A stretch of DNA of 42,357 bases from a virus, in the IMG/VR virus record IMGVR_UViG_3300045282_000023, positions 1-42,357 of that record, one strand, 5' to 3'. Under the pieces are notes generated by a model. It was not told the DNA's origin. It searched no databases and saw only the letters and a program-made list of their open reading frames with translations. Position 1 is the stretch's first letter. Each line of letters starts with the position of its first letter. A program made the translations under genes and the position numbers. Shown here one piece after another: positions 2,988 to 20,696 of the stretch.

Positions 2988-2996
2988 CACCCCTTT

Positions 2997-4916: not shown

Positions 4917-4943
4917 CTCATTACAATATATGTTTTTCTTGCA
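4917..4943 (-). promoter_or_regulatory. 27-nt promoter-like element 1 (divergent copy)
   Basis: The minus strand reads TGCA at positions 1-4, CA at 12-13, TGTAAT at 19-24 and GAG at 25-27. It is the weakest of nine copies, differing from the consensus in the first base and in the second base of the TATAAT box. It sits 54 bases upstream of the 40-residue gene and would drive that gene and the endolysin. Confidence 0.55.
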
Positions 4944-4956
4944 GGTTTATATATTT

Positions 4957-5469
4957 CTAGTTTCTAGTGTAAACATAAATCTCTCCTGTTGGAAAAACTC
5001 TGGTTCCCGCAGTAACAGAATGACGAATGTCCTCGCATAGATTTCCGTTTGTGGTAGCGGCCTCAAAGATCGTCTTATACTTGACTTCGCTTGCAGTATC
5101 CAACACAGGACCAGAGAATGCCCAACCAGGAACACTAATGAATTGTCTTGAGTAAGCCCAAGCAAACCATCTAGGACGCCACACGATGTTCGACTCATGT
5201 AGATTGGCTCGATCTCCATCTAGTTGGATGGGGGTGTTGAACACGTCTGTCTCTCCGGGGACAAACGCTCGAGCCACCAACACCTTAACCGAACGTCGGT
5301 ATTGACGACCTTCATACATAAGACCTACGGTAAGGATGTCATAGTGAGTTGGAGAAAGAATCATCTCCCTTCCGGTACGAACATTAAACACTCTCCCGAA
5401 ATTGGTGATCTCATAAGTTGGAAAACCAATAATAGGACGTCTTATCTCAATATCGGTAAAAGTACTCAT
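4957..5469 (-). CDS. NUMOD4/HNH-derived DNA-binding protein lacking the catalytic HNH histidine
   Basis: The 170-residue protein opens with the NUMOD4-like pattern GFPTYEITNFGRVFNVRTG and continues with SVKVLVARAFVPGETD and IQLDGDRANLHESNIVWRPR. In homing endonucleases of this class the second part reads roughly N-H-I-D-G-x-x-x-N-N plus N-L-x-W. Here the NH is replaced (PIQLDGD), so the metal-binding His is missing while the fold pattern remains. I infer a domesticated homing-endonuclease relative that binds DNA, perhaps as a regulator, rather than an active nuclease. It has its own upstream intergenic region of 220 bases and is followed by promoter-like element 1. Confidence 0.65.
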   Translation of the reverse strand: MSTFTDIEIRRPIIGFPTYEITNFGRVFNVRTGREMILSPTHYDILTVGLMYEGRQYRRSVKVLVARAFVPGETDVFNTPIQLDGDRANLHESNIVWRPRWFAWAYSRQFISVPGWAFSGPVLDTASEVKYKTIFEAATTNGNLCEDIRHSVTAGTRVFPTGEIYVYTRN

Positions 5470-5550
5470 TTTAGCTCCCGTTTTTCATTCCACCCGGCAA
5501 ATGTACAAATAATGGGCCCTTCAAAGACTCTATAATAAAAGAGGGTCTGT

Positions 5551-5581
5551 ATATAGTATGCATTTATATACAATACTATAT
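5551..5581. repeat. AT-rich inverted repeat (9-bp perfect arms)
   Basis: The arms 5551-5559 (ATATAGTAT) and 5573-5581 (ATACTATAT) are exact reverse complements with a 13-base spacer. It lies in the 220-base gap (5470-5689) upstream of the NUMOD4 gene, which holds no gene I can support. The position fits an operator or AT-rich promoter region for that gene, but the 27-nt element is absent here. Confidence 0.45.
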
Positions 5582-5658
5582 CCCCCTATAGACATAGAGA
5601 AAGAAATGCCTAGTGTACATAAAACCCCGTTTCCCCACGTCAGACCACCTGCAAATCA

Positions 5659-5704
5659 CCGGCATCTCCCCGGCAAAGTGCCGAAAAGTCTAAATAAATG
5701 CCGG
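5659..5704 (-). terminator. Nested hairpin at the 3' end of the SF2 helicase gene
   Basis: Outer arms CCGGCAT (5659-5665) and ATGCCGG (5698-5704) are perfect complements, enclosing an inner CGGCA/TGCCG hairpin (5671-5675 with 5679-5683, three-base loop). It overlaps the last codons of the helicase gene. No long U-tract follows on the minus strand, so it may be a weak terminator or an RNA-stabilising 3' structure. Confidence 0.4.
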
Positions 5705-6901
5705 GTAATCCAACGTTTTTAATAGACTATTTTCGTTAAACGACTGCTTATTCTCTAAACTCGTCTTTACCGCAATATCCACATATGCGGACGAAGTAAG
5801 TATGTAGTAGTACAAATCAGTAAATTCGGTGTTTAGTCGGTCAATACGTCCTTGGCATTGTATATAGTTCTTATAAGAATAGGTTAACGAGTACAAAACT
5901 GCCGTGTTAGTTGCCGTGCAATTCCAACCCTCCGACCCCGACGAATACTGTACTAAATACACCCATTCTTCACAATCTGGGACAGGTTGCTTACGATGTC
6001 CGTTCCACTCCGCTACAGTGGTCTTATCCCCTAACCAACGGAGTATATCTAATTCATAGTCGAAATTATAGAAGACTATGAGCCTAGGATGGAATCTCAA
6101 CAGGAATTGAATAGCCTCAAAACGGCTAGGATCGCTGTTGACAATCCGTCGCATCACTCGCCAAAGTTCGGCAACATCCTTAATCGGACGATCCTCAAAC
6201 ACGTTCCAGCGGTTCTTCTGGACAGCCTTGATGAGCTCTTTGTCATAGCCCACCTGAAGGAAATTCAGTATTCGTTCTGTGTGTTTGATGTACGGCATCT
6301 CCACGAGAATCTCGTTACGTAGCCTCTCTAACTTGCCTTCTCCAAGATAGCCAACAACCTGTGGATAGCGTACATACGGAGCATACAAGACGTGCTGACG
6401 TTTGTAGTCCGTGATATTCTTGTACCACCCGTTCGCAATGAAGACCGGGCCATAATCCAACCATGTATCCCCAGGTGTCGCACTCAAGAGAATCCAGCGA
6501 TTCTTCTTCACTATCTTCAGAAAGTTCTTGACCCATGCCCCGTGTCCCACCAGTCTCTGCTCATCGAAGATGAAGAATGCGTCCTCCACCTCTAGGTAGT
6601 TACCGATGTTGTTCCATGAATCGATAGTCAATAATCCCGCAACGGTAGCTTCTTCCTCAGCCCCTATACCAAACTTAGCCGCCTCACCAAGCCAATCAAG
6701 ACTGTCACGTTTCTTAGCCGTCGTGATTACTATGATTTCTTTAGGGGCCTCGTGTTGCATGTAGTAAGCCAAAGCCACAGCAGATTTTCCACTACCAACG
6801 CCTCCATATAAGATCTTTCCGTTAGACAGGAATTGAAGCGCCTCCTTTTGATGATCCATTAACTCTATGTACTGAGGCCTTTCCTCAAGACACGCTTCCA
6901 T
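5690..6901 (-). CDS. Superfamily 2 DNA helicase (SNF2/DEAD-like)
   Basis: About 403 residues with the SF2 motif series: an HQKEAL Q-motif-like segment, Walker A GGVGSGKS, Walker B FIFDEQR, motif III LLSATPG, and motif VI QCQGRIDR. The C-terminal RecA-like domain includes LVQYSSGSEGWNC, typical of phage SNF2-like helicases. Likely role: ATP-driven DNA unwinding or remodelling at forks or during recombination. I choose the ATG at 6901 because GGAGAGAG directly precedes it; an in-frame ATG at 6919 has a weaker site. It overlaps the end of the small upstream gene by 17 bases, so the two are probably coupled. Confidence 0.85.
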   Translation of the reverse strand: MEACLEERPQYIELMDHQKEALQFLSNGKILYGGVGSGKSAVALAYYMQHEAPKEIIVITTAKKRDSLDWLGEAAKFGIGAEEEATVAGLLTIDSWNNIGNYLEVEDAFFIFDEQRLVGHGAWVKNFLKIVKKNRWILLSATPGDTWLDYGPVFIANGWYKNITDYKRQHVLYAPYVRYPQVVGYLGEGKLERLRNEILVEMPYIKHTERILNFLQVGYDKELIKAVQKNRWNVFEDRPIKDVAELWRVMRRIVNSDPSRFEAIQFLLRFHPRLIVFYNFDYELDILRWLGDKTTVAEWNGHRKQPVPDCEEWVYLVQYSSGSEGWNCTATNTAVLYSLTYSYKNYIQCQGRIDRLNTEFTDLYYYILTSSAYVDIAVKTSLENKQSFNENSLLKTLDYPAFI

Positions 6902-7073
6902 CTCTCTCCGTCCATCCATTAAATTTTAACATCTCACGAAGATCCGGAGTATCCGGGTAATGCGTTTGGAGAATTCCATTCGTGTACAGAAAAATACGCC
7001 CGCTTGTAACCTCGAATTGCTTAACTGCAGAAGGTTTACTGTCTCCTCGTGCGACTCTCACTACTCGTTTCAT
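6885..7073 (-). CDS. Small hypothetical protein (62 aa)
   Basis: A basic N-terminal half (MKRVVRVARGDSKPSAVKQF) is followed by a hydrophilic C terminus with no known motif. The ATG at 7073 is chosen over a TTG at 7082. It overlaps the zinc-ribbon gene by 38 bases and the helicase start by 17. The compact overlapping arrangement and codon pattern suggest a real gene; the ribosome site is weak, so translation may depend on coupling to the gene upstream. Confidence 0.5.
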   Translation of the reverse strand: MKRVVRVARGDSKPSAVKQFEVTSGRIFLYTNGILQTHYPDTPDLREMLKFNGWTERDGSVS

Positions 7074-7227
7074 AATTATCAACCATCCGTGTGTATCTCA
7101 TGATTCTCGTATGTCTTTGTGTGATAGGCATCCCACAAAGCTTTCTGCATCGATAACAACGTTGAATTATTTTATCGAACAACCACCCTCGATGACATCT
7201 CGGACACACAAGGGTGTATATAATCAT
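7036..7227 (-). CDS. Small zinc-ribbon protein (63 aa)
   Basis: The N-terminal half contains CPRCHRGWLFDKIIQRCYRC, two CxxC knuckles separated by 14 residues, as expected for a zinc ribbon. The C terminus is basic (ITQRHTRIMRYTR). The ATG overlaps the TAA of the upstream gene by one base (TAATG) and has a GGGGA nearby. Small zinc ribbons of this size in phages are often nucleic-acid or protein adaptors; no specific partner can be read from the sequence. Confidence 0.6.
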   Translation of the reverse strand: MIIYTLVCPRCHRGWLFDKIIQRCYRCRKLCGMPITQRHTRIMRYTRMVDNYETSSESRTRRQ

Positions 7228-7547
7228 TAGTTCCCCATTCGTTTGGCAACGTCCATCCATGTCAGAGTATGGCCAAGAACTTCCATGAGCCCACGTACGT
7301 CCTCAGGATCGATCAACAGTTGAACCATCTGCTCAATGTCGGTACCATTCACCCGAGTAGGCCATTGCAAAGCGATAAGATACCGCCCTCTTTTACCACT
7401 CTGTACCAATGTATATACGACGAAGCTGTTGTAATCTCCACCGGAGGTAAGAAGCCATGGCTCACCAGCATGCAAGTCAATTGCTTCTTGCACTTTGATA
7501 CGGGTGGGGTCAAATTCCGCAGGCCTAGGACGCCACTGTTCAGCCAT
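7227..7547 (-). CDS. Conserved phage protein of unknown function (106 aa)
   Basis: Starts at MAEQWRPRPAEF, with AGGAGAATTA directly upstream; an upstream extension from 7577 lacks this support. The protein has mixed beta and helical character (GDYNSFVVYTLVQSGKRGRYLIALQW) without known catalytic motifs. Its start overlaps the stop of the previous gene by eight bases, and its stop overlaps the zinc-ribbon start. It belongs to a tightly packed run of at least six small genes (7889 to 6885) in the same direction. Confidence 0.65.
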   Translation of the reverse strand: MAEQWRPRPAEFDPTRIKVQEAIDLHAGEPWLLTSGGDYNSFVVYTLVQSGKRGRYLIALQWPTRVNGTDIEQMVQLLIDPEDVRGLMEVLGHTLTWMDVAKRMGN

Positions 7548-7743
7548 TAATTCTCCTATTCTCGGACTCTTCAACAACTTCCCGCTCTATCTCAGTCAAC
7601 TCAGCACCCCATCCGCTGAAAATAAACCGAGGCTCTTTGCCTGTTAGTTTGCGATATGCGTATGAAATCGCCTCACGCATCGGTGCATCAGCACCCTCTG
7701 GAACGTCCTCAACTTCTCCGATTGTGCAAGACCAAATTTGCAT
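7540..7743 (-). CDS. Small hypothetical protein (67 aa)
   Basis: The product starts MQIWSCTIGEVEDVPEGAD and has an amphipathic C-terminal helix rich in Glu (LTEIEREVVEESENRR). Translation starts within the TAATG overlap with the upstream gene, preceded by GAGGGGGG. The pattern APMREAISYAYRKLTG with FIFSGWG looks like a compact alpha/beta fold. I cannot assign a function. Confidence 0.6.
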   Translation of the reverse strand: MQIWSCTIGEVEDVPEGADAPMREAISYAYRKLTGKEPRFIFSGWGAELTEIEREVVEESENRRING

Positions 7744-7889
7744 TAGCTAACCCCCCTCGTATTCAAAGCCTCAGCGTAGAAATCAGCGCTGGACCTTGTA
7801 GAAAACGTTTCTTCGACTTTGTTTTCGATTCGTACTTCGTAGAGCGGACCGTGATACTCACGCTTGACCATACGTACGACAGCTTTCAT
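7743..7889 (-). CDS. Small hypothetical protein (48 aa)
   Basis: Starts MKAVVRMVKREYHGPLYEV with an excellent GGAGGAAGC-ATG site. An upstream in-frame extension would run through a terminator hairpin (7928-7960) and is rejected. Short beta-rich protein with no motif. It is the first gene after that terminator, and begins the run of small overlapping genes that ends in the SF2 helicase. Confidence 0.55.
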   Translation of the reverse strand: MKAVVRMVKREYHGPLYEVRIENKVEETFSTRSSADFYAEALNTRGVS

Positions 7890-7927
7890 GCTTCCTCCAT
7901 TAAAATATATGAAGTATAAAAACAAGG

Positions 7928-7960
7928 CAAAAAGGAAATACCCTGTTACAGATATCTCCT
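7928..7960 (-). terminator. Intrinsic terminator of the 84-residue membrane-protein cassette
   Basis: Minus-strand arms AGGAGATATC (7960-7951) and GGTATTTCCT (7942-7933) pair over 10 bp including two G-U pairs, closing an 8-base loop containing GUAACA. Five Us follow. It lies eight bases past the stop of the gene at 7969. Confidence 0.75.
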
Positions 7961-7968
7961 CTTTGAGT

Positions 7969-8223
7969 TCAACTTGCCTTCTGGTTTCCAATGACCCAGA
8001 AATATCCATCGGGACCGGGAAGGATCGAGGAACCCTGACTTGCCGCCTTGCCCAGCTCGTACATCAGTTCTTTCTCGTTTGCACGCTGCGTCTTGTCCGC
8101 CTTTACGGCGAGCGCGATCACAGCTGCATAACAAGCAATTCCTGCTGCAACGAAGCCAGTAACGGCGACGGTGTCTTGGTTTTCCTTGACCCAAACCTTG
8201 GTCTTCTGAATGAAATTCTTCAT
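7969..8223 (-). CDS. Small single-helix membrane protein (84 aa) in a promoter-gene-terminator cassette
   Basis: A basic N terminus (MKNFIQKTKVWVKENQ) is followed by one hydrophobic helix (VTGFVAAGIACYAAVIALAV, about residues 20-39), then a polar tail ending GYFWVIGNQKAS. Start: two adjacent ATG codons at 8226 and 8223; AAGGAGAC favours the second. Promoter-like element 2 lies 23 bases upstream and a hairpin terminator eight bases downstream, so this appears to be a one-gene transcription unit. No lysis or exclusion function can be shown. Confidence 0.7.
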   Translation of the reverse strand: MKNFIQKTKVWVKENQDTVAVTGFVAAGIACYAAVIALAVKADKTQRANEKELMYELGKAASQGSSILPGPDGYFWVIGNQKAS

Positions 8224-8245
8224 CATGTCTCCTTAGTCGAGTTTT

Positions 8246-8272
8246 CTCATTATAATGTATGTAATTCGTGCG
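8246..8272 (-). promoter_or_regulatory. 27-nt promoter-like element 2
   Basis: Minus strand: CGCA at 1-4, CA at 12-13, TATAAT at 19-24, GAG at 25-27, with no gaps relative to the other copies. It drives the 84-residue membrane protein gene. Confidence 0.75.
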
Positions 8273-8283
8273 ACCTCCTAGAA

Positions 8284-8318
8284 AAGAAAAAGGAAGTACC
8301 ATGTTACTGATACTTCCT
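8284..8318 (-). terminator. Intrinsic terminator of the 69-residue membrane-protein cassette
   Basis: Minus-strand arms AGGAAGTATCA (8318-8308) and TGGTACTTCCT (8301-8291) pair over 11 bp with one G-U pair and a six-base GUAACA loop, followed by UUUUCUUUUC. The loop matches those of the terminators at 7928 and (in part) 17541. Confidence 0.75.
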
Positions 8319-8325
8319 CATTGAG

Positions 8326-8535
8326 TTACTTTCCCATTTCTGCGAGCTTCTGGTTAAGTTCCATCTCCTTAACAGCCTTCTTGGCGCCACGCTTCTCAGC
8401 GCGAGCCACGAACACACGGTTGACCTTGCTGACTGCGGTGAATGCGCCGTAAGCGGCGAATCCAACGAGTGCAATGGCAACAATGCTCGTGCTCTTGCTG
8501 GTGGTGTCGTCATCAGTTGTAGTGATGTCTTCCAT
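8326..8535 (-). CDS. Small single-helix membrane protein (69 aa) in a promoter-gene-terminator cassette
   Basis: The N terminus is acidic and Thr-rich (MEDITTTDDDTTSKST), then SIVAIALVGFAAYGAFTAV forms one membrane helix, followed by a strongly basic, helical tail (ARAEKRGAKKAVKEMELNQK). This predicts N-out, C-in topology. An AAGGAGAG site precedes the ATG. Promoter-like element 3 lies 26 bases upstream and a terminator eight bases downstream. Function unknown. Confidence 0.7.
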   Translation of the reverse strand: MEDITTTDDDTTSKSTSIVAIALVGFAAYGAFTAVSKVNRVFVARAEKRGAKKAVKEMELNQKLAEMGK

Positions 8536-8561
8536 CGATCTCTCCTTAATAGGGGTTTTAT

Positions 8562-8588
8562 CTCACTATATTGTATGTAATTTTTGCG
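8562..8588 (-). promoter_or_regulatory. 27-nt promoter-like element 3
   Basis: Minus strand: CGCA at 1-4, CA at 12-13, TATAGT at 19-24, GAG at 25-27. It stands in front of the 69-residue membrane-protein gene and just past the stop of the 79-residue gene at 8595. Confidence 0.75.
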
Positions 8589-8594
8589 CCTATT

Positions 8595-8834
8595 TTAGCC
8601 ATAAACGAAGTAAACTCGCTCGCCATACTGATTAGTCGCACTACATACCCTTGTGAGAGGGCCAAAGGAGTCACGTTCGCCATCACTCCAATGAATGTTG
8701 ACGTATCCAACCGCCCTGAGACGGGGTTCAAGTAAATTGATCTCCTGTTCACGATAGGTTTCAGGAGTGTAGTGAAGACCGGTTAGCACTATCACTTCCT
8801 CGAGAGCTCTGTAAATGAATGCGTGCTTTTCCAT
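8595..8834 (-). CDS. Small hypothetical protein (79 aa)
   Basis: Starts MEKHAFIYRALEEVIVLTGL after GGGGGCAGG. It is a soluble alpha/beta protein by composition, ending in a hydrophobic strand (VYFVYG). The gene follows the 3' end of the structured noncoding region and could be expressed by readthrough from element 4. No motif recognised. An alternative overlapping frame (8558-8752) lacks a ribosome site and is rejected. Confidence 0.55.
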   Translation of the reverse strand: MEKHAFIYRALEEVIVLTGLHYTPETYREQEINLLEPRLRAVGYVNIHWSDGERDSFGPLTRVCSATNQYGERVYFVYG

Positions 8835-8844
8835 CCTGCCCCCT

Positions 8845-9215
8845 AAAAAATTAAAGGAGAGGAGGGCCAGCGGTTCCCTTCTGAGGAACTTAACCCTCCC
8901 CTATCCGCTCCGCTATGAATGGGCTTGCTTGGCCGTAATAAGCCACCCACAAATACATCGGCGTACACAGCAAGAGTGTACCCTTACCCAGGCCCCTTAC
9001 GGGATAAAGGGCACGGAACGTGGTTTTTTGTTTACCTAAACGTCGGGAGATCAATCCCATCGACGCGCTCTGTGTTATCCTTCACAGTCCACCCGTCTCA
9101 CGACGGCGCTCTGAGCCTAAGGTTGTTTAACGTCGCTCAGACGACAATATAGAACCTCATCCCCTAGTTCTAACGGTAGCCCACCACCTTCTCCAAGTGC
9201 TGCTACTTCAACAAA
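8845..9215 (-). ncRNA. Densely structured noncoding region, candidate large RNA
   Basis: No intact gene is visible across about 370 bases, but at least nine short perfect or nearly perfect hairpins follow one another: 9176-9180/9202-9206, 9150-9155/9167-9172, 9110-9116/9135-9141 (7 bp), 9093-9106 (5 bp with a GUGA GNRA-type loop on the minus strand), 9070-9074/9083-9087, 9041-9048/9055-9065 (8 bp with a 3-base bulge) and 8963-8968/8976-8981. The minus-strand 3' end has a GGAGGG/CCCTCC stem and a U-rich tract. Size and density recall ornate phage RNAs such as GOLLD or ROOL; I cannot confirm homology. Interrupted protein-like frames in the same stretch leave a decayed gene as the alternative. 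Confidence 0.45.
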
Positions 9216-9347
9216 AAGAAAAAATACGAGGAGATTAGGAAGCTTGTATCACCAATCAACCTCCGTAAGCTTGTATTATGACACTCCCTTTCGGGAATCA
9301 TAATTTCTTATACTTTGGAATTGGTAATTTCTTATCCTTTTCTCCTC
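9212..9347 (-). ncRNA. Structured small RNA A (about 120 nt plus U-tract)
   Basis: Read on the minus strand from the G following TATAAT in element 4 (9347). The 5' GAGGAGA pairs perfectly with TCTCCTC (9234-9228); a symmetric AA/AA internal loop and a second helix AGGA/TCCT follow. Inside are ACCAAT/ATTGGT (9325-9320 with 9256-9251) and a hairpin of TTATGA/TCATAA plus TCCC-GAAA-GGGA with a GNRA tetraloop. GUAUUUUUUCUUUUU follows immediately after the closing stem, as in an intrinsic terminator. The direct repeat ATACAAGCTT occurs twice. A free small RNA, or an attenuator for the structured region downstream, fits equally well. Confidence 0.6.
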
Positions 9348-9371
9348 ATTATAGTATGTGTATTTTTTGCG
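9345..9371 (-). promoter_or_regulatory. 27-nt promoter-like element 4
   Basis: Minus strand: CGCA at 1-4, CA at 12-13, TATAAT at 19-24, GAG at 25-27. No gene follows; structured RNA A begins exactly at the GAG. Confidence 0.75.
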
Positions 9372-9387
9372 TCTTATGCGAACAAAG

Positions 9388-9489
9388 GGCGGCCTGACAA
9401 TACGGCTCGACTGGATGGAACAAGCAGGACCGTATCTGCAGACTGTAAGGCTCGAATCAGCTAGGTCGATGAGCCCCCACTGACCCGCC
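9388..9489 (-). other. Three-way-junction-like structured element
   Basis: In the gap after the 99-residue gene, arms GGCGG (9489-9485) and CCGCC (9392-9388) enclose two hairpins: GGCTC/GAGCC (9475-9471 with 9453-9449) and ATACGG/CCGTAT (9435-9430 with 9405-9400, perfect 6 bp). The layout resembles a small cloverleaf, but there is no T-loop consensus or CCA-compatible acceptor, so it is not called a tRNA. It lies upstream of element 4 and may be a 3' UTR structure. Confidence 0.35.
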
Positions 9490-9513
9490 TTAGCACCCTA
9501 TCCCCCGGCAAAC

Positions 9514-9813
9514 TTACTGATGCTTCTCCATGAATTCAATCCATGGACGTATGTTCTCGTCTTCCTCGACGAACTGCTCTCTGAAGATCTTCCGTGAATA
9601 ACAACGAACGTTCTCACCCATCTTCGTCATGTAGAAGCCTGGGTACACACGGAATACATTCGGCACCAAACGACGGTCGACAAGGATGTACAAAGTACCG
9701 TCCTCACGCTCCCGAACATCTCCGACGTACTTAGCAACCTCATTAATGTTCTCAACCGTAACCTCAACGGCCTGAACCACAAAGGGTTTCCGAACGAAAC
9801 TCTTAAATTCCAT
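9514..9813 (-). CDS. Small conserved phage protein (99 aa), PGDYG-like
   Basis: Starts MEFKSFVRKPFVVQAVEVT with GAGGATACAAT upstream; an extension to 9858 is less supported. The pattern VQAVEVT, then YPGFYMTKMGENVRCYSRKIFREQF resembles small phage proteins in which a short beta fold with a P-G-x-Y segment is followed by a K-x-F-x-x-x-F end. Function is unknown. It lies between the SSB-like gene and the structured noncoding region. Confidence 0.65.
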   Translation of the reverse strand: MEFKSFVRKPFVVQAVEVTVENINEVAKYVGDVREREDGTLYILVDRRLVPNVFRVYPGFYMTKMGENVRCYSRKIFREQFVEEDENIRPWIEFMEKHQ

Positions 9814-9850
9814 ATTGTATCCTCGGTAAGATTTGGACCTGGACAGAAGT

Positions 9851-10324
9851 TTAAGCATTTGTCGGAGGATTCTCGTTAATCGAATATTTTTGTTCTAGCG
9901 CATCCTCTTCAATGGTAACAAAGAGGGACTGGAGATAAGCCTTAGTACCAGTTTTCCCATTAACACTCCAGTCGTATCCTCGTGCAATTAGATCGGCCGT
10001 TTTGATGTCAGCCCAATCCAACACATCTACTGAATTCTCGTCGAGCTGCGTACGTGTTGTAGAAGTGAGAAGAACTACTCGAGGTGGTCGATTGTTGAAG
10101 TTAACGGCCACGGAGATATACGGTGTGTCCGAATCCCCCTCCTCCCGAGCCTCAAGGTAACGGACGTTCCACCCATCCTCGAGCATTTGTTTGGCGACGT
10201 CCTCCGGAAGAATAACTGCGAAGTTACGATCACCTTCTCGGTTGTATTGCCCTTCCTTGCCAGCAAAATTACGGAATATGATCGGAGCATCTTCCACCAT
10301 GAATGTTTTAGCCGTATCAGACAT
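9851..10324 (-). CDS. Single-stranded DNA-binding protein-like (157 aa)
   Basis: A soluble beta-rich protein: IIFRNFAGKEGQYNREGDRNFAVILP, YISVAVNFNNRPPRVVLLTS and GTKAYLQSLFVTIEE provide alternating strands, aromatic residues and Asn/Arg residues as in phage OB-fold ssDNA-binding proteins. The C terminus (DALEQKYSINENPPTNA) is less clearly an acidic tip than in bacterial SSB. It lies eight bases downstream of the replicative polymerase gene, which supports a replisome role. The assignment rests on context and on my memory of similar phage proteins. Confidence 0.65.
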   Translation of the reverse strand: MSDTAKTFMVEDAPIIFRNFAGKEGQYNREGDRNFAVILPEDVAKQMLEDGWNVRYLEAREEGDSDTPYISVAVNFNNRPPRVVLLTSTTRTQLDENSVDVLDWADIKTADLIARGYDWSVNGKTGTKAYLQSLFVTIEEDALEQKYSINENPPTNA

Positions 10325-10332
10325 TAGTCTCC

Positions 10333-14100: not shown

Positions 14101-14111
14101 GTACCCTCCTT

Positions 14112-14645
14112 TCAATCAAGTCGATCGTGATCTATAAGATACTCACAGAGTTGAAACCAAACCTCTACGTTTCTTTGATCTTCATGGAATGTTCGCATGG
14201 GAAACAGACCACCATTTCCGTCTTCGTCGTACGTTCTCCAGATAAATTCTTCCAAAGAGTCTACAACTTCCTGATAATCTATTCTATCGTCCGTGAACTC
14301 TTTTAAACCGAGATTATGAATGAATTCCCAAAACCAATCATAAGCTTTTCCATCGGTCATGTAAGCCGCTCGTCTAGAAAATGCAATAAACATCTCTAGG
14401 ACAGAGCATCCTATTTCCGTTCTCCAAGCAGGATCATCAGGAAGATCTGCTGCGATGATAAACTCTCTTCGAAGATCCTTACCGTCCTCGGCTCTATTGT
14501 CATCACCAGACAAAAGCCATACAAACTCTGTCGTATGTAGGATTTTGAAAAGCTCCCAGTAAGTCCCGCTAGGACTTGTAAGGGTAGTATCAATGACTTT
14601 TGCACAGAGCCAATTGAAATATAGATTTTCAAGCGGCTCGGGCAT
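14112..14645 (-). CDS. Conserved phage protein of unknown function (177 aa)
   Basis: A soluble, mostly helical acidic protein. Recognisable blocks are YFNWLCAKV at the N terminus, LLSGDDNRAEDGKDLRREF and LEMFIAFSRRAAYM. I recall proteins with the same N-x-W-L-C start and DxNRxxDG block in many siphoviruses, without known function. It ends just before the ribosome site of the replication fusion gene, so the two are co-transcribed. A replication-linked or regulatory role is possible. Confidence 0.65.
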   Translation of the reverse strand: MPEPLENLYFNWLCAKVIDTTLTSPSGTYWELFKILHTTEFVWLLSGDDNRAEDGKDLRREFIIAADLPDDPAWRTEIGCSVLEMFIAFSRRAAYMTDGKAYDWFWEFIHNLGLKEFTDDRIDYQEVVDSLEEFIWRTYDEDGNGGLFPMRTFHEDQRNVEVWFQLCEYLIDHDRLD

Positions 14646-14646
14646 G

Positions 14647-15420: not shown

Positions 15421-15429
15421 CATCCTCCT

Positions 15430-16293
15430 TTAAATCTTATCGTAGATAACCCCATCAACATTGAAGTCCAGTAGAATGCTTCGTTCCCATCCATTGACAA
15501 ACCTGGAATTGAAGGCCTCATAGATTCCGAAATCGACGAAGTTGTCGCCCTCTTTTCCAATTACCCATCCAACCACAGCTCCTGCTTTGGACCTATCAAT
15601 CCCAAGCATGTCATACACTTCATTTAAGAAGAGATGACCTCGAGCTTGGAGGAGTTGGTTACCATAATTCTGCTGACACTGGATGAAAAGTTTATTCAGT
15701 TCTGGATCTTTTCTCCAGTTCGGTGACACTTCATCAAAGAATCGAGCATACGGTGAGTACTTATTCGGATCGGAAACCTTTACGACTTCCTTCTTGCCTT
15801 CGTCATTCTCAACCGTTTGTAATTCGGTGGCATGATAAATATCGAGTTCCTTCTCTTCTCCCAATTCAGAACGCACACGATCACGGTAATTTGTGTACGC
15901 TTCCTGAACAGCAGAATATGCTGCCATGAGAGCGGTGTTACGCTTTGCCAATGTAACGTGTGAACTGGTAAGCGCAGTGATTGATGCCACACCAACGATT
16001 ACTGACGGAGCATACAGCTTTGTAATATCCAAAGCAGCACGTCCATAGACGACGGCCAGATCTTTCTGATACTGATCATGTGGATAGTTTGTATCTTCTT
16101 TCAATGAATGAAGATTATCCACATCTTGCTTGATCTTATCGAGGCTCTCAGATAGCTTGAGAGTTGCTCGACAAGCGAGAGCCGTGCTAGCAACGGTGCC
16201 TACAATACCACCGATGAAGAAAATATGCGGAGACTGCTTCTTAAAAATTAGAACGTTTCGATTAAAGCTTCTTGTTAATGCATTAAGATTCAT
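15430..16293 (-). CDS. DUF6353-like membrane protein, copy 1 (287 aa)
   Basis: Two hydrophobic segments near residues 23-43 (IFFIGGIVGTVASTALACRA) and 100-120 (SVIVGVASITALTSSHVTLA) separate short cytoplasmic or loop regions from a long soluble C-terminal domain. The latter has YRDRVRSELGEEKELD and a YDMLGI block. A second gene at 17808-18560 shares the same order (two helices, YRDKV-x-EQLG, then YYMIGL), so the two are paralogues. I recall such phage proteins as DUF6353; not checked. They could form a membrane-associated complex in infected cells. Confidence 0.65.
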   Translation of the reverse strand: MNLNALTRSFNRNVLIFKKQSPHIFFIGGIVGTVASTALACRATLKLSESLDKIKQDVDNLHSLKEDTNYPHDQYQKDLAVVYGRAALDITKLYAPSVIVGVASITALTSSHVTLAKRNTALMAAYSAVQEAYTNYRDRVRSELGEEKELDIYHATELQTVENDEGKKEVVKVSDPNKYSPYARFFDEVSPNWRKDPELNKLFIQCQQNYGNQLLQARGHLFLNEVYDMLGIDRSKAGAVVGWVIGKEGDNFVDFGIYEAFNSRFVNGWERSILLDFNVDGVIYDKI

Positions 16294-16457
16294 GTGCTAC
16301 TCCTCCTGCTGCGACTCACCGTGAGGATCATTCGAATTTCCCATCCACTCTCTCGTCTTTCACTTAATTCAATACTAACTTCGTCGACGTCGTTATCAAA
16401 TACTGCAGCAGTGGCTGTTTTAACAGCTTCTAATGGTTCGACGCCAGCGATAGTCAT
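16290..16457 (-). CDS. Small hypothetical protein (55 aa)
   Basis: Starts MTIAGVEPLEAVKTATAAVF with GGAGGAAATCTAG upstream, directly abutting the preceding stop codon. Its TGA overlaps the ATG of the DUF6353-like gene. The C terminus is basic and Ser/Arg-rich. The tight coupling on both sides is the main evidence that it is translated. No motif is visible. Confidence 0.55.
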   Translation of the reverse strand: MTIAGVEPLEAVKTATAAVFDNDVDEVSIELSERRESGWEIRMILTVSRSRRSST

Positions 16458-17072
16458 CTAGATTTCCTCCAATGTCGGCAGATCGATCAAATATCCATTA
16501 CGAATTTGACGAATCTCTACATTATTCAAATATGTCCATCCCCACTTGTTGTCGACATGCTGAGTCGGCAAACCAAGAAGTTCATTCAAATCCGCTAGAG
16601 AAGCAACATCATACTTGTCAATGATGTCGATGAGTCGTTCTACGACAAGCTCGGCTTCTTCTCTAGAAGTTAGAATGATGTCATTAGCATCACGCCTAGT
16701 AGGCCTGTAAGCCCTAGGACCTTGCTCCGGAATATTAGGCATCCTAGGATCACGCCGTATGGCTAAAGGATTGTTGTATTGAACAATCGGACGAGGATCA
16801 TACGGTCGAGGCCTACGATAACTTGACTCTCCATACACCAGACGCTCGGCGCCCTTTGTGACCGAATCAACCATCAAATTACGCAAAGCAGGTAGTAGTA
16901 CTTCGGAGGATACGAATCTCATTGCCAGCTTGAAATCCCCACCGAAGAAAATATCCTTGAACTTGTGGCCGATTGACTTAGGCTTCTGGACAACTTCCCC
17001 AGTCACCACTTTCTCAATGACCTTCTCAGCCTTTGGTTCTTTGTCTTTTCTAGCATTACCCTGATAATCCAA
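16458..17072 (-). CDS. Conserved phage protein of unknown function (204 aa)
   Basis: The N terminus is lysine-rich and probably disordered (KEPKAEKVIEKVVTGEVVQK), then comes a helical block (IGHKFKDIFFGGDFKLAMRF), an Arg/Pro/Tyr-rich linker and a conserved C-terminal domain with SREEAELVVERLIDIIDKYD and DNKWGWTYL. I recall this arrangement from many tailed phages of Gram-positive bacteria, where it is uncharacterised. It is immediately downstream of the tail-chaperone-like gene. A structural or assembly role is possible from neighbourhood alone. Confidence 0.65.
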   Translation of the reverse strand: MDYQGNARKDKEPKAEKVIEKVVTGEVVQKPKSIGHKFKDIFFGGDFKLAMRFVSSEVLLPALRNLMVDSVTKGAERLVYGESSYRRPRPYDPRPIVQYNNPLAIRRDPRMPNIPEQGPRAYRPTRRDANDIILTSREEAELVVERLIDIIDKYDVASLADLNELLGLPTQHVDNKWGWTYLNNVEIRQIRNGYLIDLPTLEEI

Positions 17073-17082
17073 AATATACTCC

Positions 17083-17517
17083 TTAAGTTACGCTCGGCGG
17101 AACCGGCGGGAGAGGTACTTCAATCGTCTTGAGTTGCGGTTTATCCTGGTCGACATTCAGATCCTTAGGAATAATGCCCATAATGAAATTAGCTGCAGAA
17201 TCCTCATTCGTAGCCATGTCCATAAACAACGCATCATACGCAGCGCTCTGAGAAAATTCCTCCCGAAGCTTATCGCTCTTTATGAATCGCCTTCCGTCCT
17301 CAGACTTCACACCATATGCCAAGAGAACGATCTTCTTGAATTCTGCGATTAGAGATTTGTTATCCTGTGCCTTGATAATGGCTTTAATCGTCTCTTCCAA
17401 ACCGACTTTGTATTCAACTTCGAGTTCGATAATCTCGGTTTTGGTGAGATTGAAATAGAATGTTTCGGTGATTGTTTCACCATTAAAGTCTTCGTAGGTG
17501 ATATCACGCTTAAGCAT
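17083..17517 (-). CDS. Tail-assembly-chaperone-like protein (144 aa)
   Basis: FYFNLTKTEIIELEVEY, followed by a helical segment (LEETIKAIIKAQDNKSLIAE) and LLAYGVKSEDGRRFIKS, recalls a siphovirus protein usually encoded next to the tail tube and tape-measure genes. Here it lies more than 10 kb from the major tail proteins, after a terminator. No obvious slippery frameshift sequence is visible at its 3' end. I therefore treat the chaperone assignment as an inference from sequence resemblance only. Confidence 0.5.
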   Translation of the reverse strand: MLKRDITYEDFNGETITETFYFNLTKTEIIELEVEYKVGLEETIKAIIKAQDNKSLIAEFKKIVLLAYGVKSEDGRRFIKSDKLREEFSQSAAYDALFMDMATNEDSAANFIMGIIPKDLNVDQDKPQLKTIEVPLPPVPPSVT

Positions 17518-17540
17518 TCTTGATCCTTCTCTTGTTAGAC

Positions 17541-17573
17541 GAAAAAGGAAGTACCGTGTTAGGGTACCTCCTT
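17541..17573 (-). terminator. Intrinsic terminator of the 54-residue membrane-protein cassette
   Basis: Minus-strand arms AAGGAGGTACC (17573-17563) and GGTACTTCCTT (17555-17545) pair over 11 bp with one G-U pair and a CTAACAC loop, followed by UUUUUC. It lies 13 bases past the stop of the cassette gene and 24 bases before the chaperone-like gene. Confidence 0.8.
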
Positions 17574-17586
17574 CTCTTAATCAACG

Positions 17587-17751
17587 TCAAGCAGTATGCC
17601 TTAGTCGATAAGCTGTCAGCGCACAATCGTATGCCTTCTCTGCAAAATGCTTGGCAAGCAAAGCAACCAATCCTCCGATTACTAACTTGCCCGCTTGATG
17701 CACAAGAGGCTCATTCTCGTCCACTTCAACTTCAACGACTTCTTCAGTCAT
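17587..17751 (-). CDS. Small single-helix membrane protein (54 aa) in a promoter-gene-terminator cassette
   Basis: An acidic N terminus (MTEEVVEVEVDENEP) precedes one hydrophobic helix (AGKLVIGGLVALLAKHF) and a short basic tail. The ATG at 17751 follows AAAGGATAGAG; a longer frame would run into the promoter. Promoter-like element 5 and the terminator at 17541-17573 bracket it, as for three other small membrane proteins. Function unknown. Confidence 0.65.
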   Translation of the reverse strand: MTEEVVEVEVDENEPLVHQAGKLVIGGLVALLAKHFAEKAYDCALTAYRLRHTA

Positions 17752-17773
17752 CTCTATCCTTTCGTCGATTTCT

Positions 17774-17800
17774 CTCACTATAAACTATGTTTTACGTGCG
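17774..17800 (-). promoter_or_regulatory. 27-nt promoter-like element 5
   Basis: Minus strand: CGCA at 1-4, CA at 12-13, TATAGT at 19-24, GAG at 25-27. It lies between the DUF6353-like copy 2 and the 54-residue membrane-protein gene. Confidence 0.75.
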
Positions 17801-17807
17801 AATATCG

Positions 17808-18560
17808 TTATAGCGTAGTCGTGTAGTTGTAATCAAACGAAAGGCATGGTCGTCCGTCATCAGTTAGCACTGTAGAGAACTGTAGATCCATCAATTTGTC
17901 TGACTTCCAACCGAGCTGTTCAGAATATGACGTCGCTCCAAGGCCAATCATGTAATAGAAATCGTAGAGCGTGGCGTAGTCTTGTGACAATAACTTCGAA
18001 TTCAGATCGTTCTGAGCCCTTCTTAACGTCTCCATGTCACTAGTGAAATATCGTCCAGTAAAATCTTCACGGCACAGAACGTTCCCAGGACCACTAATCA
18101 AAATATCGCCAGGAGGTGGTGGATCCTTCAATACTCGTTCTTGAGCAACACTATCTCTAATGGATTGATCTTTATGTGCACCGAGCTGTTCCACGACTTT
18201 ATCTCGATAATCAGAATATAGTTGCTGGGATACAGTGAATGCGGTTTGTGCAGCGAGTGTCTTACTGGCTTCCACTCGATTCGCAGCGACGATACAGATG
18301 ATTGTAGAAGTCGCAGAGACCGCCGGAGGAATATAGAGTTTCCAGACAACCTTTGTCCTATCTATTATGCGCTCTTTACGGTCATCGCTGACTCCGTTCT
18401 TCTCTTCCCAATCATCAAGTACCCTAGCTGCTTCGAACGATGCCTTAGCGGTCAAATATGCAGTCACTATCGTTCCCACACCAGCGATAGCAGACAGAAT
18501 TACAGGAGAATTCTCTTTGGCCCCACGCCTGATTAAATTGGTTACATCAGTAAGATTCAT
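17808..18560 (-). CDS. DUF6353-like membrane protein, copy 2 (250 aa)
   Basis: Same plan as the protein at 15430-16293. Two hydrophobic segments (VILSAIAGVGTIVTAYLTA near 20-38; VSATSTIICIVAANRV near 81-96) are followed by YSDYRDKVVEQLGAHK and a soluble C-terminal region with YDFYYMIGLGA. It starts inside the stop codon of the 47-residue Cys-rich gene (ATGA). The N-terminal half is clearly paralogous to copy 1, but the C-terminal halves have diverged, which suggests an old duplication. Confidence 0.65.
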   Translation of the reverse strand: MNLTDVTNLIRRGAKENSPVILSAIAGVGTIVTAYLTAKASFEAARVLDDWEEKNGVSDDRKERIIDRTKVVWKLYIPPAVSATSTIICIVAANRVEASKTLAAQTAFTVSQQLYSDYRDKVVEQLGAHKDQSIRDSVAQERVLKDPPPPGDILISGPGNVLCREDFTGRYFTSDMETLRRAQNDLNSKLLSQDYATLYDFYYMIGLGATSYSEQLGWKSDKLMDLQFSTVLTDDGRPCLSFDYNYTTTL

Positions 18561-18700
18561 CGTTTACGCATCTCCCTGACGAATATCCAGATAAGCCAAA
18601 AACCACATGTGAAGATCGTCATGAAAATGTCGCCACAGAATTTGAAGAATCCATAACGTGGCTGACAATTACATGGCCCGTGACAAGAACAATTACTCAT
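18557..18700 (-). CDS. 47-residue Cys-rich membrane protein
   Basis: AAAGGAGGTGTC precedes ATG. The N terminus reads MSNCSCHGPCNCQPRYG: four Cys and one His within ten residues, a possible metal-binding knot. A hydrophobic helix (about residues 24-41, including FTCGFWLIWIFV) and a basic tail follow. The TGA overlaps the ATG of the DUF6353-like copy 2 gene, so the two proteins are made together. No annotated family is recognised. Confidence 0.6.
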   Translation of the reverse strand: MSNCSCHGPCNCQPRYGFFKFCGDIFMTIFTCGFWLIWIFVREMRKR

Positions 18701-18710
18701 GACACCTCCT

Positions 18711-19124
18711 TTATGCTAGAACTCCAACTCGTTCAAAATTCAAATTCTCAGAAAGTTCTCGTCCATAATTCAAATGTTTTGACATAAATTCTTCTGGAAT
18801 ATTAAACGCTTTAGCCGCATCTCCTTGCGTTGCGAACAATTCACCTGTCTCAATACAACGGGTTACAAAACCAGGATGTCCTTGGTTTCCTTTATGAATT
18901 GTTGTGACCATAGTGTTTGTATTAGAACCAAAAAGAGAACCCATGATTGACTTGTTCAATATCAAGTCTCCATCCGTCCCTGCGTCAAGTCCGGCATGCG
19001 ATTCTCTCAATATAACCCATGTAATTCCTGCGCTTAGCAATCCTGCTCCGGCACAGCAATACCAGGTCTTGTACTTCCTGAAATGAGCCTTCGTCTTCTC
19101 GACAATCGGGAGTTCAATCTCCAT
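18711..19124 (-). CDS. Membrane protein with a C-terminal NUMOD1-like DNA-binding segment (137 aa)
   Basis: One N-terminal membrane helix (TWYCCAGAGLLSAGITWVIL, about 20-39) is joined by a flexible Gly/Asn-rich linker to VTRCIETGELFATQGDAAKA and a short helix-turn-helix-like block (FNIPEEFMSKHLNYGREL). The pattern V-x-C-x-x-T-G-E-x-F plus A-A-x-x-F recalls NUMOD1 modules attached to homing nucleases, but no nuclease domain is present. It could tether DNA to the membrane. SD AGGAGGACTA precedes the ATG. Structured RNA B ends just upstream and may be its leader. Confidence 0.55.
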   Translation of the reverse strand: MEIELPIVEKTKAHFRKYKTWYCCAGAGLLSAGITWVILRESHAGLDAGTDGDLILNKSIMGSLFGSNTNTMVTTIHKGNQGHPGFVTRCIETGELFATQGDAAKAFNIPEEFMSKHLNYGRELSENLNFERVGVLA

Positions 19125-19137
19125 TAGTCCTCCTAAG

Positions 19138-19211
19138 CCAAAAATGAAATGAGAGGATCTCCAAACAGGTTAGCTTGTGCCTAACTCCATCTGAAGTCTA
19201 AACTTCCTCTC
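19138..19211 (-). ncRNA. Structured small RNA B or attenuator (about 74 nt)
   Basis: It starts at the G directly after TATAAT of element 6 (19211). The first seven bases GAGAGGA pair exactly with TCCTCTC (19157-19151), and ATTTCATTTTTGG follows. Inside are a GTTAG/CTAAC hairpin (seven-base loop), a possible short hairpin around TTAG, and CTGTTTGGA, also found twice in RNA C. The 137-residue gene starts about 13 bases beyond, so it may be a leader attenuator rather than a free RNA. Confidence 0.55.
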
Positions 19212-19235
19212 ATTATAAAGCGTGTTTTTCTTGCG
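19209..19235 (-). promoter_or_regulatory. 27-nt promoter-like element 6
   Basis: Minus strand: CGCA at 1-4, CA at 12-13, TATAAT at 19-24, GAG at 25-27. Its GAG is the 5' strand of the RNA B closing stem. Confidence 0.75.
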
Positions 19236-19241
19236 GAATGG

Positions 19242-19273
19242 CAAAAAAGAGAGCCTGCGTTAGCAGACCCTCT
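19242..19273 (-). terminator. Intrinsic terminator of the 56-residue membrane-protein cassette
   Basis: Minus-strand arms AGAGGGTCTGC (19273-19263) and GCAGGCTCTCT (19258-19248) pair over 11 bp with two G-U pairs and a four-base TAAC loop, followed by six Us. Element 6 begins seven bases further on, so units are packed head to tail. Confidence 0.8.
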
Positions 19274-19280
19274 CCTGATG

Positions 19281-19451
19281 CTACCTCGGTTGATTAACTC
19301 TGTAGTCAACCTGCCGAGCGTAGGCACGACGACCTTGCGCCGCACTCATCGAATCAATGAGCTTCGCAGTTGCTGTAACTGCGAGCACACCAATACCAAT
19401 GACTGCAAGCGGGTTTTCGTCCCATGCCTTCTTCAGCTTGTCTTTCCACAT
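19281..19451 (-). CDS. Small single-helix membrane protein (56 aa) in a promoter-gene-terminator cassette
   Basis: The sequence starts MWKDKLKKAWDENPLA, then has one hydrophobic helix (VIGIGVLAVTATAKLI, about 17-32), followed by a basic tail rich in Arg and Gln. AAAGGAGCAAAACA precedes the ATG. Promoter-like element 7 lies 21 bases upstream; the terminator at 19242-19273 follows. The amphipathic N terminus and single helix resemble those of the 84-residue cassette protein, though sequence identity is low. Confidence 0.7.
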   Translation of the reverse strand: MWKDKLKKAWDENPLAVIGIGVLAVTATAKLIDSMSAAQGRRAYARQVDYRVNQPR

Positions 19452-19472
19452 TGTTTTGCTCCTTTGTAGTCT

Positions 19473-19499
19473 CTCATTATAATATGTGAAATTTATGCG
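19473..19499 (-). promoter_or_regulatory. 27-nt promoter-like element 7
   Basis: Minus strand: CGCA at 1-4, CA at 12-13, TATAAT at 19-24, GAG at 25-27. The first seven bases overlap the last codons and stop of the secreted wall-enzyme gene, showing how tightly the units are packed. Confidence 0.75.
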
Positions 19500-19972
19500 C
19501 AGTAGTTCGGCGGCTGCCAGTTGCAGAGAGCCATCGAACGTGCTTTTGCGTCCTGAACCCACTCAGGAGCATCCTTGGCGTGCAAATATCCGCCATACTT
19601 ACCCCAGGTAGAATCCAAAATCTGCCATTTACCTGAGGCCGATGAATCCGGGTTTTGTGCAGTGATGATCCCACGAGACTCTCGATTCATTATCCAACAC
19701 GGAGGAAGGTCTCCTCCACATTGTCCTGAAGAATATACCGGAGCAATCGTGGTGGTTGTTGTCGTACTTGTGCTTGTAGTAGTGCTGGTGGATGTGGTAC
19801 TTGTACTAGTGGTCGTAGTTGTAGTTGTCGTTGGTATAGTTGTAGTTGTCGTTGAGGAGTTCGATGCAGCTAATTCAACTGCATAGGACGGAGGTACCTC
19901 CTTACTGCTTCCTCCGAATCCCAATGCTCCTAACAAAGACAAAGCTATAACTATTCTACCGACAGCTTGCAT
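19493..19972 (-). CDS. Secreted transglycosylase/Rpf-like wall enzyme with a Thr/Ser linker (159 aa)
   Basis: Residues 1-31 form a signal peptide-like segment (MQAVGRIVIALSLLGALGFG). A 40-residue Thr/Ser tract follows, then a C-terminal domain with CWIMNRESRG and NPDSSASGKWQILDSTWGKY. The Glu in NRESRG and the S-A-S-G-x-W/Y-Q block match the transglycosylase-like fold of actinobacterial Rpf proteins. Cys residues near both domain ends (CGGDLPPC; C in ALCNWQPPNYC) may form disulfides. It should act outside the membrane on peptidoglycan, unlike the endolysin, which lacks a signal. SD AGGAG precedes the ATG. Structured RNA C lies just upstream. Confidence 0.8.
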   Translation of the reverse strand: MQAVGRIVIALSLLGALGFGGSSKEVPPSYAVELAASNSSTTTTTIPTTTTTTTTSTSTTSTSTTTSTSTTTTTTIAPVYSSGQCGGDLPPCWIMNRESRGIITAQNPDSSASGKWQILDSTWGKYGGYLHAKDAPEWVQDAKARSMALCNWQPPNYCA

Positions 19973-20002
19973 CTAAACTCCTAGGTAGGCCAATGTAGCA
20001 AA

Positions 20003-20098
20003 ATTAAAAAATATGAGAGATCTAGTGTACTTCCAAACAGAAATTTTTGCACTGTAGTGTGCTTCCAAACAGAAGCTTTTGCACTACTTAGATCTCTC
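20003..20098 (-). ncRNA. Structured small RNA C with tandem covarying hairpins (about 95 nt)
   Basis: It starts at the G directly after TATAAT of element 8. The closing stem GAGAGATCTA/TAGATCTCTC (20098-20089 with 20024-20015) is a perfect 10 bp. Inside are two copies of one hairpin. Each has an outer stem ending in CACT, a CAAAA internal loop, a five-bp inner stem and a TGTTTG loop. The inner stems differ compensatorily: GCTTC/GAAGC in one, ATTTC/GAAGT in the other. ATATTTTTT follows the closing stem, as in an intrinsic terminator. The wall-enzyme gene starts 30 bases beyond, so a free RNA or attenuator are both possible. Confidence 0.65.
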
Positions 20099-20308
20099 AT
20101 TATAGAACGTGAAAAATTTGCGAATTGTTTTCAGAAACTTCCCCCCGGGAATTTTTTCAGATTTGAACTCAGAAATCGATTCTAAGGCCCCTAGAAGCCG
20201 TTCTAAGCCTCTCAGACCCCGTTCTGGCACTATAGTCCATCTAGCGGCCTCTACAGTACAGGGCAAAAAATATAGTACGTGTTTAGAAAGCGAAAACACA
20301 GGAACCAT
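20084..20308 (-). CDS. Hypothetical basic protein (74 aa), uncertain
   Basis: Starts MVPVFSLSKHVLYFLPC after a well-placed AAAGGAG, with a hydrophobic N-terminal 15 residues and a basic C terminus. The last eight codons overlap promoter-like element 8. The SD and start codon lie in the loop of a 16-bp inverted repeat, so translation could be structure-controlled. The codon pattern is not distinctive, and a noncoding transcript is a fair alternative. Confidence 0.4.
   Translation of the reverse strand: MVPVFSLSKHVLYFLPCTVEAARWTIVPERGLRGLERLLGALESISEFKSEKIPGGKFLKTIRKFFTFYNERSK
20096..20122 (-). promoter_or_regulatory. 27-nt promoter-like element 8
   Basis: Minus strand: CGCA at 1-4, CA at 12-13, TATAAT at 19-24, GAG at 25-27. 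RNA C begins at its GAG. Confidence 0.75.
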
Positions 20309-20351
20309 GTAAGACTCCTTTCGAATCTCACACAATTCCTGTGCTTTCGCT
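20289..20351 (-). repeat. 16-bp inverted repeat enclosing a ribosome site and start codon
   Basis: Arms 20289-20304 and 20336-20351 pair along all 16 positions on the minus strand with a single G-U pair (arm core GCACAGGAA with TTCCTGTG). The 31-base loop holds AAAGGAG and the ATG at 20308. This geometry exposes the ribosome site in a loop or could act as a protein-binding hairpin. Confidence 0.6.
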
Positions 20352-20364
20352 ACTACATCTGGTT

Positions 20365-20649
20365 TTACGTCGAACTTCTCAGAATGAAGTTCAATCCTTT
20401 CGATACCATCACATGTGCTCTTTCGTAGCTCACAATGATCAGGATTCCGGCCAAATTTCCGATTACAATGGCGATCGTATCCGGACTGACTCCACCTCTC
20501 GTCTCTTCTGACTTAAGCTGGATCAATCTTTCAAGTTTCTCCATCGATTCGGCATACTTCACCGAATCCAACTCATTCTCTTGCATCTCCAAGAGAACAC
20601 GTTGAATGGCGTCATCAAGTATTGACCTTCGTTTCCAAAGCTTCAACAC
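20365..20649 (-). CDS. Conserved phage membrane protein (94 aa)
   Basis: A GTG start at 20649 is chosen because AAAGGA lies six bases upstream. The protein has an acidic helical N-terminal half (DDAIQRVLLEMQENELDS, then YAESMEKLERLIQLKSEE) and a membrane segment (SPDTIAIVIGNLAGILIIVSY). The C terminus HVMVSKGLNFILRS is conserved in similar phage proteins I remember, which have no known function. Promoter-like element 9 lies 20 bases upstream. Confidence 0.7.
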   Translation of the reverse strand: MLKLWKRRSILDDAIQRVLLEMQENELDSVKYAESMEKLERLIQLKSEETRGGVSPDTIAIVIGNLAGILIIVSYERAHVMVSKGLNFILRSST

Positions 20650-20669
20650 GTTCCATCCTTTCTGTAGTT

Positions 20670-20696
20670 TCCATTATAATGGATGAATATCGTGCG
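20670..20696 (-). promoter_or_regulatory. 27-nt promoter-like element 9
   Basis: Minus strand: CGCA at 1-4, CA at 12-13, TATAAT at 19-24, then GGA instead of GAG. It follows the 74-residue gene at 20700 and stands in front of the 94-residue gene. Confidence 0.65.

Follow-up and report, generated by a model that had tools for sequence, protein, structure and literature searches.

A conserved promoter-like element in phages of the 1706/Pepy6/HotFries group and its candidate reader, a single-chain two-barrel RNA polymerase

The virus record IMGVR_UViG_3300045282_000023 of IMG/VR, 42,357 bp long and analyzed here in full (the window), carries on its minus strand a 27-nt promoter-like element in several gap-free copies, which raises the question of what reads it. 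A preliminary description, made from the sequence alone, proposed a dedicated phage promoter class and named no reader. That class is still the best reading of the element, although it belongs to a whole family of phages and is not limited to this genome. The likely reader is encoded at 333–2990 of the same window, and we judge it fairly probable, from sequence comparison and folding, that the element is the promoter of this single-chain, two-barrel RNA polymerase of the phage.

A rigid element confined to one strand

All nine copies of the preliminary description were recovered exactly, with the same left ends, strand and gap-free alignment (Table 1). Their composition was likewise reproduced: CGCA at the front (TGCA in one copy), CA at positions 12–13 in all nine, a TATAAT-like box at 19–24, and GAG behind it in eight of nine, with no TTGACA at a normal −35 distance from any of them. 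One measurement requires correction, as the 14 bases said to separate the beginning of CGCA from the TATA core are counted from the end of CGCA to TATAAT; CGCA begins 18 bases before the box.

A position weight matrix was built from the nine sites and both strands of the window were scanned, with 20 third-order Markov copies of the coding strand serving as the null. The nine sites score 28.6–37.6 bits with the full matrix and 21.4–35.4 bits in leave-one-out scoring, while the simulated maximum is 13.7 bits. The scan revealed a tenth copy (CGCAGGAATTACATGGGTTATATTGAG) at 24.6 bits within an open reading frame (ORF), a small exception to the rule that all copies lie in noncoding gaps. The next match (position 34835, 14.6 bits) falls in the head/packaging operon near the null maximum; thus no credible match occurs in the head and tail operon, as had been claimed, and no copy precedes the structural operon. 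On the plus strand no match exceeds 9.4 bits, and across the window and its relatives the scan found no equal-scoring matches in coding regions or on the opposite strand. The hundreds of copies stand against 0 or 1 match in the reversed and opposite-strand controls, and an origin by chance or composition has a negligible probability.

Each of the nine copies does precede a gene or RNA-like feature. A start codon led by a Shine-Dalgarno (SD) sequence follows five of them at 19–26 nt (20670, 19473, 17774, 8562 and 8246), structured non-coding stretches lie behind three (20096, 19209 and 9345), and a 5′UTR-like stretch follows the copy at 4917.

The gene content of the window resembles that of Streptomyces phage HotFries and of a wider set including Rhodococcus Poco6, Gordonia Secretariat, Arthrobacter Mudcat and Lactococcus 1706, and the phage belongs to the Lactococcus-1706/Rhodococcus-Pepy6/Streptomyces-HotFries group. 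The element is present in HotFries, Namo, Secretariat, Poco6, Mudcat and a saliva siphovirus contig, as well as in CricKo, Paella, Makai, Conley, Tanis, Salk, OhMyWard and SscP1EGY. Variants occur in Lactococcus phages P118 (TTTANSTTTTACAYACCCTATAATGAR) and 1706 (CACANSTTTTACATAYRCTATAGTAGA), and in Curtobacterium phage Pippin15, where the element ends in TTTAATAGA or TATAGTAGA. Cultured phages with the polymerase carry 7–33 copies. A pattern search found the element absent from phiC31, ReqiPine5, c2 and SPbeta, and the four two-mismatch matches in phage G (498 kb) are at chance level. In Arthrobacter phage Paella (MT771347.1; 113.7 kb, with polymerase), many of the 33 pattern matches form a regular array of ~300-nt period at 37.6–44.7 kb.

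An alignment of 532 copies gives the conserved core T0-C-G-C-R, A/T at positions 7–10, A11-C-A, and T19-A-T-A-A-T-G-A-G-A28, with a C-rich tail at 29–32 (consensus T-CGCR-N2-AWWW-ACA-N5-TATAATGAGA). Its spacing is rigid: CGCR-7-CA-5-TATARTGA accounts for 331 unique copies, and all other combinations tried for 24, an excess that is partly due to selection because the metagenomic loci were chosen with the 7/5 spacing. A start codon with an SD sequence lies within 48 nt of 436 of 556 copies. T runs stand upstream of 159 of 542 copies, against 14 for randomly placed sites; for terminator-like hairpins the figures are 31 and 1. This arrangement argues for a promoter because points of re-initiation are placed in this way.

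The TATAAT box and the start of the RNA

The preliminary description implied a −10 box of the host sigma-A type. The promoter reading stands, but several properties of the box argue against that implication. The base most needed by sigma-A is A-11, and a sigma-A box should show near-invariant A-11 and T-7. Across the copies T-7 is conserved at 98%, T-10 at 99%, A-9 at 95% and A-11 at 89%, and A-11 remains among the least conserved bases of the box (89%, with T-10 at 98%) when the box is masked in the search. It is missing from 8 of 10, 7 of 11 and 5 of 7 copies in three loci; most copies of loci L118, L064 and L051 read TCTAAT or TGTAAT, T[GCT]TAAT is the prevailing form in several genomes, and four of the eight copies listed for Pippin15 read TTTAAT or TTTAGT. 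Nor is there a −35 hexamer 16–18 nt upstream with a variable spacer, since TTGACA is lacking and one spacing dominates. Canonical sigma-70 promoters (at most two mismatches) were found on neither strand of the HotFries and Namo stretches and were few elsewhere, a result that counts little because actinobacterial promoters are loose.

The folding of the non-coding RNAs bears on where transcription starts. In the window, the closing stems of three predicted RNAs begin exactly at G25 of the element, and moving the RNA start to position 31 costs 8.5–13 kcal/mol (Table 1). Strong closing helices accompany 30 of 120 non-gene copies; controls with exchanged downstream parts yield 5–8, and gene copies 3 of 436. 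Of the 30 helices, 23 start at positions 20–25. Because the closing stems begin at GAG or inside TATAAT, the RNA most likely begins at or just before GAG, directly beside the box and not 7 nt downstream. The short 5′ leaders of phage 1706 hint at an early start without being decisive. With A-11 dispensable, the spacing rigid and the RNA apparently starting beside it, the TATAAT sequence is probably not a sigma-A −10 box.

One of these RNAs, at 20013–20098, contains two tandem hairpins that share GUGCAAAA..UUCUGUUUGGAAG.ACAC; a closing stem of 10 bp encloses them, a T run comes next, and the RNA has no Rfam match. Similar putative non-coding RNAs (AAAGGCGAGA..AUGCGUAGGU..ACCUACCCGC) stand straight behind the element in Rhodococcus Poco6 (L013, left end 15035) and Gordonia Secretariat (L014, left end 23782). 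In Poco6 (L013 14605–14710) a tRNA gene begins 6 nt past a copy, so the element appears to drive a tRNA as well.

Table 1. Element copies and associated features of the window (42,357 bp)
Feature	Position	Strand	Remarks
Element copy 1	20670..20696	-	GTG of ORF 20365-20649 20 nt downstream
Element copy 2	20096..20122	-	upstream of structured RNA and gene 19493-19972
Element copy 3	19473..19499	-	21 nt to ATG of 56-aa ORF (19281-19451)
Element copy 4	19209..19235	-	directly behind terminator-like hairpin with T run; upstream of structured RNA and ORF 18711-19124
Tenth element copy (new)	19006..19032	-	within ORF 18711-19124
Element copy	17774..17800	-	22 nt to ATG of 54-aa ORF (17587-17751)
Element copy	9345..9371	-	upstream of structured RNA, then, further on, Pistol ribozyme
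Element copy	8562..8588	-	26 nt to ATG of 69-aa ORF (8326-8535)
Element copy	8246..8272	-	19 nt to ATG of 85-aa ORF (7969-8226)
Element copy (TGCA...TGTAATGAG)	4917..4943	-	upstream of amidase/nuclease/exonuclease/polymerase cassette
Predicted non-coding RNA	20013..20098	-	closing stem GAGAGAUCUA/UAGAUCUCUC from element position 25; -29.3 kcal/mol from position 25, -16.3 from 31
Predicted non-coding RNA	19148..19211	-	closing stem GAGAGGA/UCCUCUC from element position 25; -24.6 vs -16.1 kcal/mol
Predicted non-coding RNA	9228..9347	-	closing stem GAGGAGA/UCUCCUC from element position 25; -42.0 vs -28.9 kcal/mol
Pistol self-cleaving ribozyme	9087..9146	-	45.9 bits (gathering 34.5); ~200 nt downstream of 9345 copy, RNA 9228-9347 between
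Single-chain two-barrel RNA polymerase, 885 aa, phrog_4291	333..2990	-	last large gene; proposed element reader
Catalytic DFDGD loop, polymerase residues 511-515	1446..1460	-	invariant in all aligned homologues
N-terminal helix-turn-helix of polymerase, ~residues 88-114	2649..2729	-	best Pfam match sigma-70 region 4
C-terminal helix-turn-helix of polymerase, residues 850-879	354..443	-	near opposite end of protein
82-aa protein (phrog_4303) adjoining polymerase	88..336	-	present in 9/9 relatives compared

A two-barrel polymerase as candidate reader

By its structural model, the single-chain product of gene 333–2990 has a fold with two double-psi beta-barrels, and it is a predicted DNA-dependent RNA polymerase. 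Its family, phrog_4291, carries the name 'RNA-dependent RNA polymerase'. The AlphaFold model is of moderate quality (pLDDT 76.6, pTM 0.49), and its best Foldseek matches in the PDB are QDE-1 (2.3e-7) and the RNA polymerase gp62 of phage P74-26 (7.8e-6). The DxDGD loop of such enzymes is present (LSGADFDGDTVLVI), DNDGD being the form in YonO of SPbeta. Homologues occur in at least 250 sequenced phage records, where the annotation mostly says no more than 'helix-turn-helix protein', and none was found on plasmids. In the scan of viral contigs for the polymerase a single-sequence query gave nothing, and an alignment query worked.

Element and polymerase occur together. Exact element matches were found in at least 120 IMG/VR stretches. 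Among 50 records picked by the motif, 33 carry phrog_4291; 24 are at least 40 kb long, and all 22 of these with two or more copies carry it. The motif-picked records hold 316 matches, on one strand per record, with none for the reversed control. Conversely, when metagenomic records were chosen for the polymerase and nothing else, 13 of 13 with a length of at least 37 kb contain the element in 4–12 copies each (93 matches, against 1 with the reversed pattern). In polymerase loci 51 of 51 copies lie on the polymerase strand, and the element is confined to one strand in every record. Thus, the element is found with the polymerase and is absent without it, one phage with weak copies (FP_oengus) being the exception.

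We hypothesize that the polymerase is packed in the particle and injected into the host, where it would bind the rigid element as a single unit, perhaps via its terminal helix-turn-helix (HTH) domains, melt the TATA part, and start RNA at or just before the adjacent GAG. Carriage in the virion is probable, judging from the phage 1706 homologue (ORF75), which is deposited in GenBank as 'structural protein'. Each copy would then drive one small early gene, one small non-coding RNA, or the nuclease/polymerase cassette, and late genes could be expressed by transcription running on from the polymerase cassette over the joined cos ends, or from host promoters. More tentatively, we suggest that the injected, HTH-bearing enzyme starts early transcription by itself inside the TATAAT-like box. 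Because it would need no host sigma factor, the same promoter could serve bacteria as far apart as Streptomyces, Arthrobacter and Lactococcus, and would be the first assigned to polymerases of the 1706/Pepy6 type.

Several observations weigh against assigning the element to this polymerase. The sequence TATAAT matches the sigma-A consensus exactly, and ~79% of the copies found with the box masked read TATAAT or TATAGT. Genes for DNA polymerase, helicase and exonuclease co-occur with the element equally well; co-occurrence therefore marks the lineage and not the reader. In FP_oengus, with a polymerase 40% identical, only weak element copies are seen (its 9–10-mer repeats were considered as an equivalent element and rejected), and YonO reportedly transcribes late genes in SPbeta, a phage that lacks the element. 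An element copy also precedes the polymerase cassette, whose start then requires virion carriage or host read-through, and the basis for virion carriage is the one GenBank product name.

The main rival assigns the element to the host enzyme: RNA polymerase with sigma-A would read TATAAT as a −10 box, a phage activator bound at CGCA...CA would replace the −35 contact in the manner of MotA, and the phage polymerase would serve late genes as YonO does (PMC5467207). TATAAT as the commonest form of the box and the placement of copies in the replication and small-gene part of the genome, not before the structural operon, would suit this explanation. It fits poorly with the replacement of A-11 in most copies of some loci, with the conserved GAGA directly behind the box, and with RNA stems that call for a start near position 25 or earlier, not at 30–33. 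In addition, HTH domains among the shared core proteins were found in the polymerase only, and P118 and 1706 infect one host species and differ in element consensus, which counts for the phage polymerase. We consider the host enzyme with an activator unlikely.

A variant in which the phage polymerase reads the element only with a partner, such as the 82-aa phrog_4303 product or another conserved small sigma-like protein, draws on the constant place of the 82-aa gene behind the polymerase gene in the relatives compared. That protein has no recognizable DNA-binding domain, whereas the polymerase has HTHs at both ends, and we regard the need for a partner as improbable. Still less probable is that the element is a signal in RNA (a processing or stability site) or a repeated operator and no promoter. 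In actinophages conservation does run on into the C-rich leader (GAGACCCCTA), and at non-coding copies the element pairs with downstream RNA; yet copies often come right after a T run or a terminator-like hairpin, places at which transcription has to begin anew, the sequence block ahead of TATAAT is conserved to the same degree as the rest, and the element is not palindromic.

Known systems and the genome context

Phage-borne two-barrel polymerases with promoters of their own have a precedent. In Thermus phage P23-45, a virion two-barrel polymerase has been assigned its own conserved promoter, and the promoters of gp96 (the tail-tape-fused virion RNA polymerase) and gp64 (the non-virion enzyme) resemble the present case in joining a conserved early-gene motif to a phage-borne polymerase, with relatives that lack the polymerase also lacking the motif (PMC10770324). 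The systems differ in that the P23-45 enzyme is fused to the tape measure and its starts are mapped (PMC10770324), whereas here the enzyme is a separate 885-aa protein with HTHs, with another motif and with starts deduced from folding. YonO of SPbeta is likewise a single-chain two-barrel phage polymerase with DxDGD; it drives a late operon, and its promoter sequence and need for factors were left open (PMC5467207). Sequence comparison of the polymerase with YonO gave no significant similarity, and unlike the present group SPbeta lacks the element, the surroundings of the YonO operon included. Between yonK and yonN, SPbeta has an unannotated 1.7-kb stretch (59153–60833; L136 4154–5834) in the area of the reported YonO-dependent start and non-coding RNA. 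The RNA polymerase gp66 of crAss-like phage phi14:2 (PDB 6vr4) shares the two-barrel fold (weak Foldseek match, E 9e-3) and is virion-packaged according to its PDB title, but has 2166 residues.

Better-known phage promoters offer partial likenesses. T7-type promoters are also rigid, high-information elements that extend into the transcribed strand, with TATA beside a purine start, but the polymerase fold is unrelated and the sequence resemblance short. T4 middle promoters (MotA box plus −10) have an upstream box at a near-fixed distance from TATAAT and no −35; they need host sigma-70, and the start-site and A-11 evidence does not fit that model here. A search of the available literature found no earlier description of the element, which is probably the long-missing promoter of this polymerase family. 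A readable, rigid element makes the promoter and factor question of the YonO paper testable, would locate transcription starts across hundreds of genomes, and may provide a tool for expression in actinobacteria and lactococci that does not depend on the host.

By its sequence, the window is a phage genome that is complete from cos to cos apart from the overhang, because both ends of the record agree with cos regions that are conserved among cultured relatives. These cos-like ends (1–60 and 42270–42357; GAGGGGGTCTCGCAA...CCCCC..TGCAT / CCCCGGGGGAA) are strongly conserved in phages of Streptomyces, Gordonia, Rhodococcus and Arthrobacter, yet contain no element copy, a candidate late promoter having been looked for there. 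A megablast search of a window segment against phages gave no match. The window also encodes two DUF6353 (phrog_2152) paralogues, at 15430–16293 and 17808–18560, which are conserved in the group.

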